Assembly (NCBI GenBank): GCA_910575795.1
Contig: CAJTGE010000005.1
Span: forward strand, 1 to 64,000
Length of the DNA: 64,000 nucleotides
Direction of reading: 5' to 3'
Source of the DNA: Clostridiaceae bacterium
Lineage (GTDB): Bacteria; Bacillota; Clostridia; Lachnospirales; Lachnospiraceae
Shown piece by piece: positions 45,507-61,252 of the stretch. Every line of letters starts with the position of its first letter. The stretch's first letter is position 1. Made by a program: the position numbers and the translations under genes. A model generated the notes under the pieces. It did no database searches, had not been told where the DNA came from, and saw only the letters and a program-made list of their open reading frames with translations.

Positions 45507-45971
45507 ATGCTCAGGGAAAAAATGGGAATACTGTGGGAAAGGTTTGTAAACAGAGAGACGATCTCCTATGTGATATTCGGGGTTCTGACAACGCTGGTGG
45601 ACTGGGCGGTTTATCGGATCGTGCGCTGGCCCGGGTATTCGGTTGCGTTTTCTACCGCTGTTTCATGGGCGTCTGCTGTGCTCTTCGCATTTATTACGAA
45701 TAAGCTGTTTGTGTTCCGGAGCCGGGCTTTAGGCATGGCCGCGCTGGCGAGGGAGTTTATTTCTTTTGTCTCATGCCGGGCATTTACCGGGGTCTTTACC
45801 ATTGTTTTTATGGTGGCGGTCGTGGACTGGCTTGGCTGGAATGAATGGCTGGGAAAAGCAGCGGTATCGGCGATCTCTCTGGTTATGAATTATGTATTCA
45901 GTAAGCTGTTCATATTCAGGAAGAGTGAAAACCGCGATCACTCAGCGGAGTCTGCGCAGTCAATGCGCTGA
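45507..45971 (+). CDS. GtrA-like four-helix membrane protein
   Basis: This 154-residue protein starts at 45507, after GGAAAGGAAA. GtrA-family features are FVNRETISYVIFGVLTTLVD at the first helix, VSWASAVLFAFITNKLFVF at the second and MNYVFSKLFIF at the fourth. GtrA proteins are thought to flip or chaperone polyprenyl-phosphate-linked sugars for glycan decoration. It lies 40 bases before the YfhO-type GT-C protein, and the ArnC/GtrB-like enzyme at 25203 could supply the lipid-linked sugar; this trio would form a complete decoration pathway. Confidence 0.85.
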   Translation: MLREKMGILWERFVNRETISYVIFGVLTTLVDWAVYRIVRWPGYSVAFSTAVSWASAVLFAFITNKLFVFRSRALGMAALAREFISFVSCRAFTGVFTIVFMVAVVDWLGWNEWLGKAAVSAISLVMNYVFSKLFIFRKSENRDHSAESAQSMR

Positions 45972-46011
45972 CAGCGAAAAAAGGGCGGCATTACAGCCAG
46001 GCAGGAGGTTG

Positions 46012-48753
46012 ATGTCCATGGACAGGGAGAAGATGCCCGGGATCGACAGAGATTTCGGAGACATGGGGGAGATAGAGGAGCTGCTTGCGGACGAGGAGCC
46101 CTGTGAGGACAGGGAACAGCCGGAGGGAAGGGAGACGTCTGAATACGGGGAGGAACCGGAGGGGGGAAGGCTGTCGGGATGGATACCGGAATCCCTGTTA
46201 AAGACAGGGCTAGTGCGCCCTTCGGACGGGCTTCTGGCCGCATTTTTTGTCCCGGTGATCATTCTGGTCGTGATCTTTGCCCAGAGGGGGATCTTTCCCT
46301 TTGGGGAGGAAAGCTATTTAAGGACAGATATGTACCATCAGTACGCCCCCTTTTTTTCCGAATTCCGTCATAAGCTGACGACAGGAGGAAGCCTGCTTTA
46401 TAGCTGGGATATCGGCATGGGGGTCAATTTTGCGGCGCTGTATGCGTACTACCTGGCGAGTCCTGTGAACTGGCTGGTAGCCCTGTGCCCGCAGGGGCTG
46501 GTCATTGAGTTTATGACGTACATGATCGTCCTGAAAACGGGCCTGTGCGGCTTAAGCTTTGCCTGGTACCTGCAAAAGCACAACCGGGTGGATCGGTTCG
46601 GGGCGGGTTATTTCGGCGTTTTTTACGCCCTGTCAGGCTACATGGCGGCCTATAGCTGGAATATCATGTGGCTGGACTGCATTCTCCTGTTCCCGCTCAT
46701 CATGCTGGGCCTGGAGCGGCTGGTTCATGAGAAAAAAGGATATTTTTACTGTATCATGCTGGGGCTTTCGATCCTGTCCAATTATTATATATCCATCATG
46801 ATCTGCATGTTCATGGTCCTGTATTTTATCTGCCTTCTGTTTCTGGAGGGGAGGAAGGGATGGAAGGATTATGCGGTGATCACGTTTCAGTTTGCGGGGT
46901 ATTCGCTGCTCGCCGGCGCGCTTTCCGCGGCGGTGCTGTTGCCGGAGATCGCGGCGCTTAAGGCTACCGCGTCGGGAGATTTCAACTTTCCAAAGGCCTT
47001 TGAGATGTATTTCCCGATTTTCGATATGCTGGCAAGGCATATCGCGAATGTGGAGCCTGAGATCGGGCTGGGGCACTGGCCGAATATCTACTGCGGCGTG
47101 GCCATATTCCCGCTGTTTCTCCTATACCTGGCCAACAACCGGATTCCGTTAAAAGAAAAGATCGTGTACTGCGGCCTTTTACTGCTGTTTTTTGCCAGCT
47201 TTTCCATCAATGTATTTAATTTTGTCTGGCACGGTTTCCATTATCCGAACAGCCTGCCGTGCCGTCAGTCATTCATCTATATATTTTTGATGCTTGCGCT
47301 GTGTTTCCGCGCCTATCTTTTTTTGGAGCAGACGCCAAAGAAGCATATCGCGATGGCGTTCTGGGGTTCGGTCTGCTACATCCTGCTGGCCCAGAAGCTG
47401 GTGACCGGGGAGGACTACCATTTTGCGGTATTCTATGTGGCCATCCTTTTTCTGGCAGCCTATACAGGGCTGATGTACTATTACCAGAACCCGCGCTGCC
47501 TGGGAACCCTGGCGGCGCTCCTCACGCTGGCGGCGACAGCAGTGGAGGCGGCGGTCAACACGACGGTTACCAGCGTGACGATCACCAGCAGGGAGGCGTA
47601 TGTAAAGGACAATGAAGATGTCCGCCTCCTGACCGGCAATCTGCGGGAGTACGGCGAATTTTACCGGATCGATAAAACGAATGCCAGAACCAAGAATGAC
47701 GGCGCGTGGATGAACTTCCCTTCTGTTTCCCTGTTCTCCTCCGTGGCCAGCGCGGATATGACGGAATTTTTCAAACGGATGGGGTGCGAGGGCTCTACGA
47801 ATGCATACAGTATTATGGGAAGCACGCCGTTTGTAGACTCCCTGCTTGGTATCCGCTATGCCCTCTGTGAGGGAAAGCAGGAGAATACGAGGCGCTCCTT
47901 AAACAGCTTTTCCGGGGAAACGTATCTGTACGAGAACCCGTACACACTGCCCGTGGGCTTCATGATGCCGGATATCATCGCGGACGGGTGGCATCTGGAT
48001 CTGGCGAATCCCATTGATGTACAGAATGAGTTCGCCTCCCTGCTCGGGGCGCCGGATCTGCTGGTTTACGTCCCGGGAGAAGAGTCAGGAGAAACTTTTC
48101 ACTTTACAGCGGCGCATGATGGGGAGTATTATATTTATATAGGAAACCGCCAGGTGCGTACGATCCGGCTGACGATCGGAGAAAAGACGGATACCATTGA
48201 GAATGTAAAGCGCGGCTTTCTGATAGAGACAGGATGGCTGAAGGCGGGGGAGACGGTGCGCGTCGAAAACAAAGATGGACCGGAGATATTGGACGCGGGC
48301 GCATACCTGTTCAAAGAGGACGGGCTTGCCGCCGTCTATGAGAAGCTGAACCAGAATCCCTTTGTGACAGAAGAATGGGAGGATACGCTCCTCAGAGGCT
48401 CTGTGGATGCGGGCCAGGGCGGGGTGTTGTTTTTTTCCGTTCCGTATGATGCCGGCTGGGAGATCCGCGTAGACGGAGAAGAAGCGCCGGCCAGGAAGAT
48501 GCTGGATGCGTTTATGGGGGTGGAGCTTACGGAAGGGATGCATTCGGTGGAGATGTCGTACCGGCCGAAGGGGCTTTGGCAAGGGGTTGTGATAAGCGCG
48601 GGGGCTTTGGCGTGGGCGGTCTTGATTGCGGTATTTGGAAGGGCGAAGAAATATAAGAGGCGGGATGAAAGAACCGCGGGGGGGACGCCTGCGCCAGGCA
48701 GCGGATCCGACAGAACCGCGCTCTCGCTCAGTGAAAAGCGCAGCGGGCACTAA
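46012..48753 (+). CDS. YfhO-family membrane glycosyltransferase
   Basis: This 913-residue protein starts at 46012, 4-5 bases after CAGGAGG. An acidic cytoplasmic leader (1-65) precedes about 13 membrane helices with the GT-C-like loop (EESYLRTDMYHQYAPFF near 100, with acidic residues after helix 1) and a soluble extracellular part (about 540-870). YfhO proteins add sugars to teichoic acids in Bacillus and Listeria. The last 22 or so codons are supplied by a palindromic element (48687-48825), so the native C-terminus after the final helix has been replaced. Confidence 0.85.
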   Translation: MSMDREKMPGIDRDFGDMGEIEELLADEEPCEDREQPEGRETSEYGEEPEGGRLSGWIPESLLKTGLVRPSDGLLAAFFVPVIILVVIFAQRGIFPFGEESYLRTDMYHQYAPFFSEFRHKLTTGGSLLYSWDIGMGVNFAALYAYYLASPVNWLVALCPQGLVIEFMTYMIVLKTGLCGLSFAWYLQKHNRVDRFGAGYFGVFYALSGYMAAYSWNIMWLDCILLFPLIMLGLERLVHEKKGYFYCIMLGLSILSNYYISIMICMFMVLYFICLLFLEGRKGWKDYAVITFQFAGYSLLAGALSAAVLLPEIAALKATASGDFNFPKAFEMYFPIFDMLARHIANVEPEIGLGHWPNIYCGVAIFPLFLLYLANNRIPLKEKIVYCGLLLLFFASFSINVFNFVWHGFHYPNSLPCRQSFIYIFLMLALCFRAYLFLEQTPKKHIAMAFWGSVCYILLAQKLVTGEDYHFAVFYVAILFLAAYTGLMYYYQNPRCLGTLAALLTLAATAVEAAVNTTVTSVTITSREAYVKDNEDVRLLTGNLREYGEFYRIDKTNARTKNDGAWMNFPSVSLFSSVASADMTEFFKRMGCEGSTNAYSIMGSTPFVDSLLGIRYALCEGKQENTRRSLNSFSGETYLYENPYTLPVGFMMPDIIADGWHLDLANPIDVQNEFASLLGAPDLLVYVPGEESGETFHFTAAHDGEYYIYIGNRQVRTIRLTIGEKTDTIENVKRGFLIETGWLKAGETVRVENKDGPEILDAGAYLFKEDGLAAVYEKLNQNPFVTEEWEDTLLRGSVDAGQGGVLFFSVPYDAGWEIRVDGEEAPARKMLDAFMGVELTEGMHSVEMSYRPKGLWQGVVISAGALAWAVLIAVFGRAKKYKRRDERTAGGTPAPGSGSDRTALSLSEKRSGH

Positions 48754-48825
48754 GCTCGAAAAGACCCCGCTAAGTGCCGGCGGTTTTCAATGGGGTTCCT
48801 TACGGATCCGCTGCCTGGCGCAGGC
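48687..48825 (+). repeat. Covarying-arm palindromic element, copy C
   Basis: The left arm GCCTGCGCCAGGCAGCGGAT (from 48687) pairs perfectly with the right arm ending at 48825. The core shares AAAAGCGCAGCGG, AAGCTCGAAAAGACC and GCCGGCGGTTTTC with the copy at 60575. It overlaps the 3' end of the YfhO gene and provides its stop codon. Confidence 0.85.
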
Positions 48826-48959
48826 TGTGTTTTCGGCTGGCCTTTGTTTGATAGTATGCTGTTTTTGGAAAATTTTTTCAATGGCCTGTTGTTTTAAAAA
48901 AGCAGGATCCAGGGCTTAGAAGGAAGTATCAATGCATATAAAGAAAAGAGGAGAGACAG

Positions 48960-49588: not shown

Positions 49589-49746
49589 AGGAACTGTCTC
49601 GAAATAACTTCCCATTAGTCCGCAGGATTTTTCTTCGGGAGCGCCGCTCAAAAATCAGGCGCATAGCGGGCTATGTAACTAATTTTTGAGCGGCGCTGTC
49701 GGAGAAAAAGACAAGGAATATGGGAAGTTATTTCGAGACAGTTCCT
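49589..49746. repeat. Nested palindromic MITE-like element
   Basis: Perfect 27-nt outer arms (49589-49615 and 49720-49746; outer edge AGGAACTGTCTCGAAATAAC) enclose a perfect 15-bp inner inverted repeat (49641-49655 with 49682-49696). Inside that is a small CATAGC/GCTATG hairpin. The whole 158 bases folds on itself. A diverged relative of the outer edge may lie at 56037-56068. Confidence 0.9.
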
Positions 49747-49994
49747 TACCCGGGCTGCCTTTTGAAAAAAGAAGGAAAAACCGATTAAGGTAGGGGTTGC
49801 AGGGAAATAATAATAGCAATACAATATATAAAACGGTTCATGTGAGGCACGGAGACGCTACTGGCGTCCGGATTTGTAAGAAGCTACAGCTATAAAGCTC
49901 CGGCATTTGTTTTTTGGAAAAGAAGCGCAATGGAAAAGAATGATCTTTCAGTCACATCTGAATTCCAAAAGCGCTCCCAAACTTCAGCCAGCCA
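49747..49994. other. Intergenic stretch between two palindromic elements
   Basis: No supported gene, tRNA or riboswitch is seen. A run ATAATAATAGCAATACAATATA lies near 49806, without correctly spaced promoter hexamers. Confidence 0.4.
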
Positions 49995-50133
49995 GTAACG
50001 TAGCCCGCGCCGGCTTCTATATCCATAAGGAACCCGTAGAAAACCGCCGGGCTGTACCAGGTGTCCGCTGTGCTTTTCTCCGAGCGGAAGCGGGGTTCCG
50101 TTGGATATAGAAAGCCGGCGCGGGCGGCCCTCT
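49995..50133 (-). repeat. Covarying-arm palindromic element, copy B (reverse orientation)
   Basis: The arms GCCCGCGCCGGC..CTATATCC (50003-50024) and their complement (50103-50125) pair almost perfectly. The outer flanks TAACGTAGCC (one side) and GAGGGCCGCC (other side) are shared with copy A. Relative to copy A the innermost part, about 26 bases, is missing. It lies about 60 bases before the relA promoter. Confidence 0.85.
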
Positions 50134-60386: not shown

Positions 60387-60574
60387 AAGATAATACCTCA
60401 ATGATTACTGTTTGGATAGTTGTTATGTGTTTTGGGTAGTTTTATTTTAGCAGATTATTGGGGGGGATTCCATAGGTTCACAGACATTTCACAAGTTTGG
60501 GGGGCGCGGTTGTTACTATCACGGATCAATGGCAGTTAGTTAAGCGGACGATTGCGGGATGTTGTTTATCGTGG

Positions 60575-60726
60575 GGAGGCCGCCGTCGCCAGCCCCTGTA
60601 TCCAACGGAACCCCGCTTCCGCTCGGAGAAAAGCGCAGCGGTACTAAGCTCGAAAAGACCTCGCTAAGTACCGGCGGTTTTCTACGGGTTCCTTATGGAT
60701 ACAGGAGCTGGCGACGGCTACGTTAT
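60575..60726 (+). repeat. Covarying-arm palindromic element, copy A (fullest copy)
   Basis: The arms GCCGTCGCCAGC..CTGTATCC (60582-60603) and their complement (60697-60718) differ internally only at a CC/GA pair. Inside are GGAACCC/GGGTTCC, a GAGAAAAGCGCAGCGG strand and a GTACT/AGTAC hairpin around AAGCTCGAAAAGACC. The flanks GGAGGCCGCC and GGCTACGTTA are shared with copy B. Confidence 0.88.
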
Positions 60727-60920
60727 CAGCGGGCCGGGAATCCGTTTCATCTCTCCGTAAGTCTTGTAATACCTTTATCTGGCACAGGCATAAATATCCT
60801 CTGCTTGAATTGTTGAATAGTATTATCATATATTAGCTCAACAAAAATTTAACTGTTATCACGTAAAAAGCGGATACCCCATTGTCTGAGGTATCCGCTC
60901 TGCTCACAGCACACATTCAA

Positions 60921-61252
60921 TCAAACTTTCAAATTCTCTATATTCTCTTTCGTGAGGCCAGTATATCGGATAATTTTTTCGACAGGTTCGCCATCTGATA
61001 TCATATTCCGGGCAATTCCCAGTTTAGCGTTCCGATCCGCATTATATAATGCCTGCGCCTCATCATGCCTTGCTTTTGTACGAAGTCTCTCTTTTTCACG
61101 GAACTCCGATGAAGCAGTAATCGTATAATAAGCATCAATCGCCTGACTCATAACCGGCGTCTCCATCTCTTTAATCTTCTCCAGTTCCTCTTCGCGATAT
61201 CCCAAAAAAAGGTTTGCTCCATAACATCAAAAATAAAATCTGCATAAAACAT
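60921..61252 (-). pseudogene. Remnant of an Rpn/PD-(D/E)XK nuclease-type transposase protein
   Basis: The reverse strand encodes FRMFYADFIFDVMEQTF, then a one-base loss in a T7 run near 61205-61211, then LGYREEELEKIKEMETPVMS to the stop. The last 30 residues (ARNMISDGEPVEKIIRYTGL) match the tail typical of recombination-promoting nuclease/transposase (Rpn, PDDEXK_2) proteins. Only the C-terminal third is present and the frame is broken, so it is not functional. The intact-looking 94-codon frame from TTG 61205 has no ribosome binding site. Confidence 0.6.

Follow-up and report, generated by a model that had tools for sequence, protein, structure and literature searches.

Three palindromic elements (copies A, B and C) in the window, i.e., the whole 64,000-nucleotide stretch of contig CAJTGE010000005.1 analysed here, are copies of one high-copy palindromic repeat family, which is probably a non-autonomous, mobile-looking repeat of the Lachnospiraceae, MITE/REP-like in kind, with its arms kept paired by quasipalindrome correction (template switching). 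The unit of about 155 bp comprises short conserved flanks, an outer arm of 15 bp, a core of about 100 nt forming an imperfect hairpin, a second arm complementary to the first, and a 3' flank that is likewise conserved (Table 1). The kinship of the three copies, which an earlier, sequence-only reading had proposed from a shared core, was confirmed by BLASTN, by alignment and by a covariance model, the latter recovering A, B and C at 181.6, 129.5 and 160.6 bits, respectively, with all three among its 27 training sequences. The same reading had described outer arms that differ between the copies while the opposite arm compensates; this holds with the small corrections that A has one C-A mismatch and that the 5' arm of B is 16 rather than 15 nt long owing to one extra T, in addition to a 16-column gap in its apical hairpin. 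The outer flanks, assigned there to A and B, are indeed common to both, but they are also carried by C in a slightly diverged form (GGACGCC / GGCTGTGTT). For either strand, the predicted folding energies of the three copies lie between -74 and -91 kcal/mol, and C and B make up a +/- inverted doublet flanking apt. The genome under study and the closest relative examined, designated below as G000 and G002, are both draft assemblies.

Table 1. Positions of the three copies and of their parts in the window
Feature	Coordinates	Strand	Basis
Copy A, palindromic element	60575..60727	+	BLASTN and covariance model in own genome; orthologous place in G002 without the element
5' outer arm of A, hypervariable but paired, 15 nt	60585..60599	+	Alignment columns; coordinates from the sequence
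Core of A, ATCC to GGAT, including a mini-hairpin, an AG bulge and an apical hairpin	60600..60700	+	Consensus structure
3' outer arm of A, complementary to the 5' arm except for one C-A mismatch	60701..60715	+	Sequence and alignment
Stretch holding A; the corresponding place in G002 has a short, different sequence	60497..61232	.	Aligned flanks 735 bases apart here, 36 in G002
Copy B; part of the apical hairpin missing, 5' arm longer by one T	49994..50132	-	Element missing from the apt-relA gap in G002
Copy C; overlaps the reading frame 45892-48753 at its end	48680..48834	+	No copy at that place in G002

Two other sequences were noted near the copies. The stretch around A that is absent from G002 holds a 94-codon frame (60921-61205, minus strand) without a Pfam match, which we take to resemble the C-terminus of Rpn-type nucleases. 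Downstream of apt, a separate inverted repeat of about 158 bp (49589-49746; 81% self-match, with ends reading GGAACTGTCTCGAAATAA) is missing at the corresponding place in G002 and looks like another small mobile element.

The BLASTN search with copy A yielded 131 first-look candidates in the genome, 40 of which were scored, the strong matches being full-length or nearly so, while the covariance model built from 27 copies returned 112 rows in its own genome, opposite-strand shadows included. At E<=1e-8 and with the shadows removed, 118 distinct matches were obtained in the stretches analysed, 77 of G000 and 41 of G002; 150 of the 154 matches of this two-genome set were aligned. Beyond the pair, matches were found in 14 of 61 relatives, all 14 belonging to the same family; the 24 genomes from the order's other families gave none. 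Of 250 sampled Lachnospiraceae genomes, 76 gave matches, with only 12 candidates scored per genome by a model biased to G000. G023 yielded 116 rows and G007 48 matches. A core pattern matched at least 117 stretches of named genomes, including that of the isolate Roseburia inulinivorans DSM 16841; among the 80 matches listed, 57 bear the title Lachnospiraceae or the name of a genus that we take to be its member, and the others come from further Clostridia or unplaced organisms, with a few exceptions such as one Muribaculaceae MAG. The pattern also occurs in six viral-contig stretches, one of which was confirmed by the model at E<=1e-3. In 18 copies of G023, which represents an independent genus, variable paired arms again lie between the constant GGTTCGC and GCTAGTTTGT, and 20 copies of G007 are longer and less varied; the mini-hairpin and an A-A mismatch between two CTAAG strings are conserved across genera. 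Several copies lie at contig ends, so that the family breaks the assemblies of a major family of gut bacteria.

The behaviour of the arms is most directly visible in the orthologous copies of the sister genomes, where positional counterparts in G000 were found for 12 of the 41 G002 copies, ten of them with both flanks and whole arms. In these ten pairs the flanks differ at 342 of 7006 sites (4.9%), a value biased low because flank sites entered the count only at a local identity of 70% or more, and the unpaired bases of the element differ at 15 of 309 (4.9%). The 180 arm pairs of this small sample, which includes two ortholog pairs of 99.9-100% identity and comes from assemblies with a reported contamination of 6-7% each, show eight double (paired) and three single changes, the direction of change not being polarised, as against 0.14 doubles and 16.7 singles predicted by independence at the flank rate; the 344 inner pairs show three double and 18 single changes (arms versus inner pairs, Fisher p 0.0018). 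The arms thus change mostly in pairs (8 double versus 3 single), as is characteristic of quasipalindrome correction, in which changes keep or raise arm complementarity. Four of the eight doubles are two-sided transversions (A-T/C-G, A-T/T-A, C-G/G-C and T-A/G-C), for which there is no route through a G-U pair. The eight fall in five of the ten loci, three of them in one locus (L384/L358), on removal of which the arms retain five double and three single changes and the inner pairs two and 11 (Fisher p 0.056), with 0.11 arm doubles expected; the unpaired bases then differ at 3.2% versus 4.5% for the flanks, which leaves room for some constraint on the core. With the other two positional pairs added, one truncated and one rearranged, the arms count 15 double and nine single changes over 189 bp, most of the extra ones from the rearranged copy.

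These counts may be explained as follows. After insertion, most of the unit would drift at about the neutral rate, while the outer arms and the core bases next to them make up about 20 bp of unbroken inverted repeat, at which replication would stall and the polymerase would switch template, so that one arm is rewritten from the other (quasipalindrome correction). A mutation in an arm would then be either erased or copied to its partner, so that the sequence of the arms drifts freely and the pairing persists. Such copying would explain the paired steps, the two-sided transversions, the equal insertions or deletions in three of six length variants described below and the lack of a G-U preference. 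Of the two causes that the sequence-only reading had put side by side, a structured RNA under selection and hairpin-templated correction, the second is favoured by the ratio of double to single changes in the arms (8/3, compared with 3/18 in the inner pairs), by unpaired bases changing as fast as the flanks and by the absence of a G-T excess. Template switching at imperfect inverted repeats, which makes them more perfect, has been described for E. coli in the accessible part of PMC7202029, and the available text of Monttinen and Loytynoja (2022, PMC8794818) proposes that template switching creates and maintains RNA hairpins and predicts instantaneous multi-base compensatory changes, its authors calling the strongest evidence for hairpin maintenance circumstantial. 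In comparison with the reporter constructs of the former, as far as that part of the source goes, the present repeats would carry a long-term, genome-wide footprint of the process in dispersed sequences; in comparison with the RNA genes of the latter, within the same portion of that source, the element here need not be RNA. Renewal of the arms at each transposition, though conceivable, is not needed as an explanation, because the orthologs show steady paired change.

The pairing could, alternatively, be preserved by selection for mobility, if the element is a mobile DNA whose hairpin, single-stranded or cruciform, is needed for transposition and whose arms undergo ordinary compensatory mutations. 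The high copy number, the patchy distribution (14/61 relatives and 76/250 genomes), the REPIN-like doublets and the core details conserved across genera (the mini-hairpin and A-A mismatch among them) are all in keeping with this explanation. However, in the fixed orthologous copies the unpaired and inner positions change near the flank rate, indicating little selection, and yet the arms still change in pairs, with two-sided transversions among the changes, which makes selection for mobility an unlikely cause of the pairing.

Covariation in the family is strong. In the 27-copy alignment two-sided changes were found in 19 of the 53 pairs, and in 113 aligned matches from many genera (112 distinct rows, three of which are shadows) in 49 of 53, versus 42.7 in shuffles; in the latter set 91.5% of the pairing cells are paired, versus 59.6% when shuffled and 35-41% with the partners slid, and the covariation score is 0.697 versus 0.169 in shuffles, all these values leaning towards the model structure to which the wider alignment was fitted. 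The dozens of covarying copies named by the sequence-only reading as support for maintained pairing do therefore exist (112 model rows; 49/53 pairs). Copies with nearly identical cores can carry quite different arms: in the 248 copy pairs with a core distance below 2%, the arms differ at 34.5% of positions, and 1597 of 1720 ungapped arm cells remain Watson-Crick. Among six uncut copies with a changed arm length, three have equal lengths in both arms (16/16, 14/14 and 9/9). Many copies in the 118-copy arm list have imperfect arms.

Such covarying helices, together with conserved unpaired motifs, would also be expected of a structured non-coding RNA, or of the RNA part of a retro-mobile system, with the fold under selection. 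In a selected RNA stem G-T mismatches should exceed A-C ones, and in the arms they do not: 28 versus 42 were counted in the 118 copies of G000 and G002, and 34 versus 69 in 107 other copies, from other genera (p 0.0004, the copies not being independent). The 107-copy set leaves out record L177, which is identical to part of G002. The A-C excess of the second set amounts to a G-U preference on the minus strand and so could reflect weak selection for minus-strand pairing, and one core pair, at which the plus strand has 34 T-G but not a single A-C, is a hint of plus-strand structure; with the exception of that pair, G-U was not preferred over A-C in the variable stems. By way of comparison, 17 tRNAs from the same loci have 17 G-T and no A-C, a control biased by the pairing that ARAGORN requires. 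The inner stems break in the orthologs, no Rfam family matched, and the orientation to genes is not fixed in two of three sets (46 versus 46 and 21 versus 25), the third comprising 16 G002 copies (12 versus 4). A selected RNA is consequently regarded as improbable, more so than selection for mobility, and covariation is here no proof of RNA on its own. A cis-regulatory RNA was set aside, since only the small G002 set showed a consistent orientation to genes.

Conversion or recombination between dispersed copies could change both arms together by swapping whole hairpins, with no copying from arm to arm. Chimeric copies do exist: L020 and L015 carry an inverted 5' flank at the 3' end, the arms of L020 being unmatched, and one G002 doublet corresponds to a single hybrid copy in G000. 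However, five of the eight ortholog doubles are changes of one or two positions within otherwise unchanged arms, and for the changes in L099, L105 and L090 no donor arm was seen by eye in the 118-copy arm list, so that swapping is a very remote explanation beside arm-to-arm copying. The hybrids themselves (L015, L020 and L099:2699-2851), with a 5' flank at each end or with arms that do not match, apparently arose through rearrangement of inverted partners.

RNA structure is conventionally deduced from compensatory double changes, which in these arms are about as frequent as neutral single changes. It is, on our estimate, somewhat less likely than not that copying between arms at the DNA level is by itself the source of the textbook covariation seen over dozens of genera, in a repeat that is not necessarily RNA. 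If so, the family would be a natural record of bacterial template switching and would caution that long uninterrupted stems may covary strongly without RNA selection; so large a natural set would allow a debated mutation mechanism to be measured across many genomes and would provide a null case for covariation tests.

The sequence-only reading knew of no described family with this core, and the searches agree with it. No Rfam family matched in the window at the gathering threshold or copy A at E<=10, and in 18 loci of other copies only one T-box was returned at E<=1, elsewhere in the loci. No description of the family was found in Rfam or in the literature searched. A human-microbiome survey lists 250 palindromic candidates (PMC8040213), among which the family could already figure. 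The closest parallels are the REP/REPIN sequences, which are presented in the available part of PMC3116915 as dispersed, high-copy extragenic palindromes, mostly in inverted doublets, with compensatory changes in the REPIN spacer hairpin mentioned, and, as REP dimers, in that of PMC3733652. To the extent of these sources, the present family is likewise dispersed, high-copy and arranged in inverted doublets (31/33); unlike REP/REPIN, it has a unit of about 155 bp versus 20-40 bp, a complex core and arms that drift in pairs. Nor is the GTAG/CGTC tag a constant feature: next to the arm, the minus strand of G000 copies has CGTAGCC, but G023 copies have ACTAGC there. The RAYT gene associated with REP/REPIN was rejected as the mobiliser of the family, because copy-rich genomes such as G007, with 48 matches, lack Y1_Tnp; G007, G009, G018, G024 and G029 all carry the element and have no Y1_Tnp match at E<=1e-5, and the one match in G002 is broken by two stops. 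MITEs resemble the family in being small and gene-less and in their presence or absence between sister genomes, and one copy of a subfamily, the L003 unit described below, shows by eye terminal inverted repeats (TIR) and a 10-bp repeat; for the family at large no constant TIR or target duplication was seen at the sites compared, and no candidate parent IS appeared among the neighbour ORF families listed.

Among neighbours within 1.5 kb, counted without record L177, 31 of 33 are in the order + then - (inverted doublets with 5' ends outward), and this orientation holds even with a host gene in between, as with apt between C and B; a - then + pair lying 2.5 kb apart on contig C5 represents separate loci outside this count. 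Nine filled sites of G000 have no element at the aligned place in G002, as is also the case for the sites of B and C, and the L102 doublet is absent from G002 as a whole with its 342-bp spacer. At ten sites compared by eye between the two genomes the boundaries were ragged and no constant target duplication was seen. The Y1_Tnp search, the neighbour ORFs and the doublet spacers revealed no linked mobilising enzyme, there being no transposase among 139 neighbour ORFs in the families listed (25 of 182), which are ordinary host genes; a linked transposase or cargo was accordingly discarded, the neighbour ORFs and spacers holding host genes or no ORF of note. A first doublet spacer was matched in 10 of 61 genomes, the matches being DUF3781-like sequence elsewhere and an unrelated inverted-repeat family of about 40 bp, and a second in 3 of 61. 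Nor was the idea of the doublet as a cassette supported, given that G002 natively carries a part of the L105 spacer. An apparently conserved motif midway between doublet partners proved to be the partner element itself.

Several separate observations were made in the same neighbourhoods. A sequence of about 40 bp recurs on the G000 contigs C1, C2, C6, C10, C18 and others, and also in the L105 spacer; in several places it forms inverted pairs about 70-100 bp apart and thus represents a further short inverted-repeat family. At L003:1450-2230 (contig C6 of G000), a unit of about 780 bp contains a + and a - copy of the element inside terminal inverted repeats that are perfect by eye over 20 bp, with the 10-bp direct repeat ACCCGTGAAC at both ends, and related sequence is present in L002 and L004. 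A rifampin ADP-ribosyl transferase (Arr-ms) gene at L390:1946-2416 is flanked by two copies of the element, a short + copy on one side and a - copy on the other.
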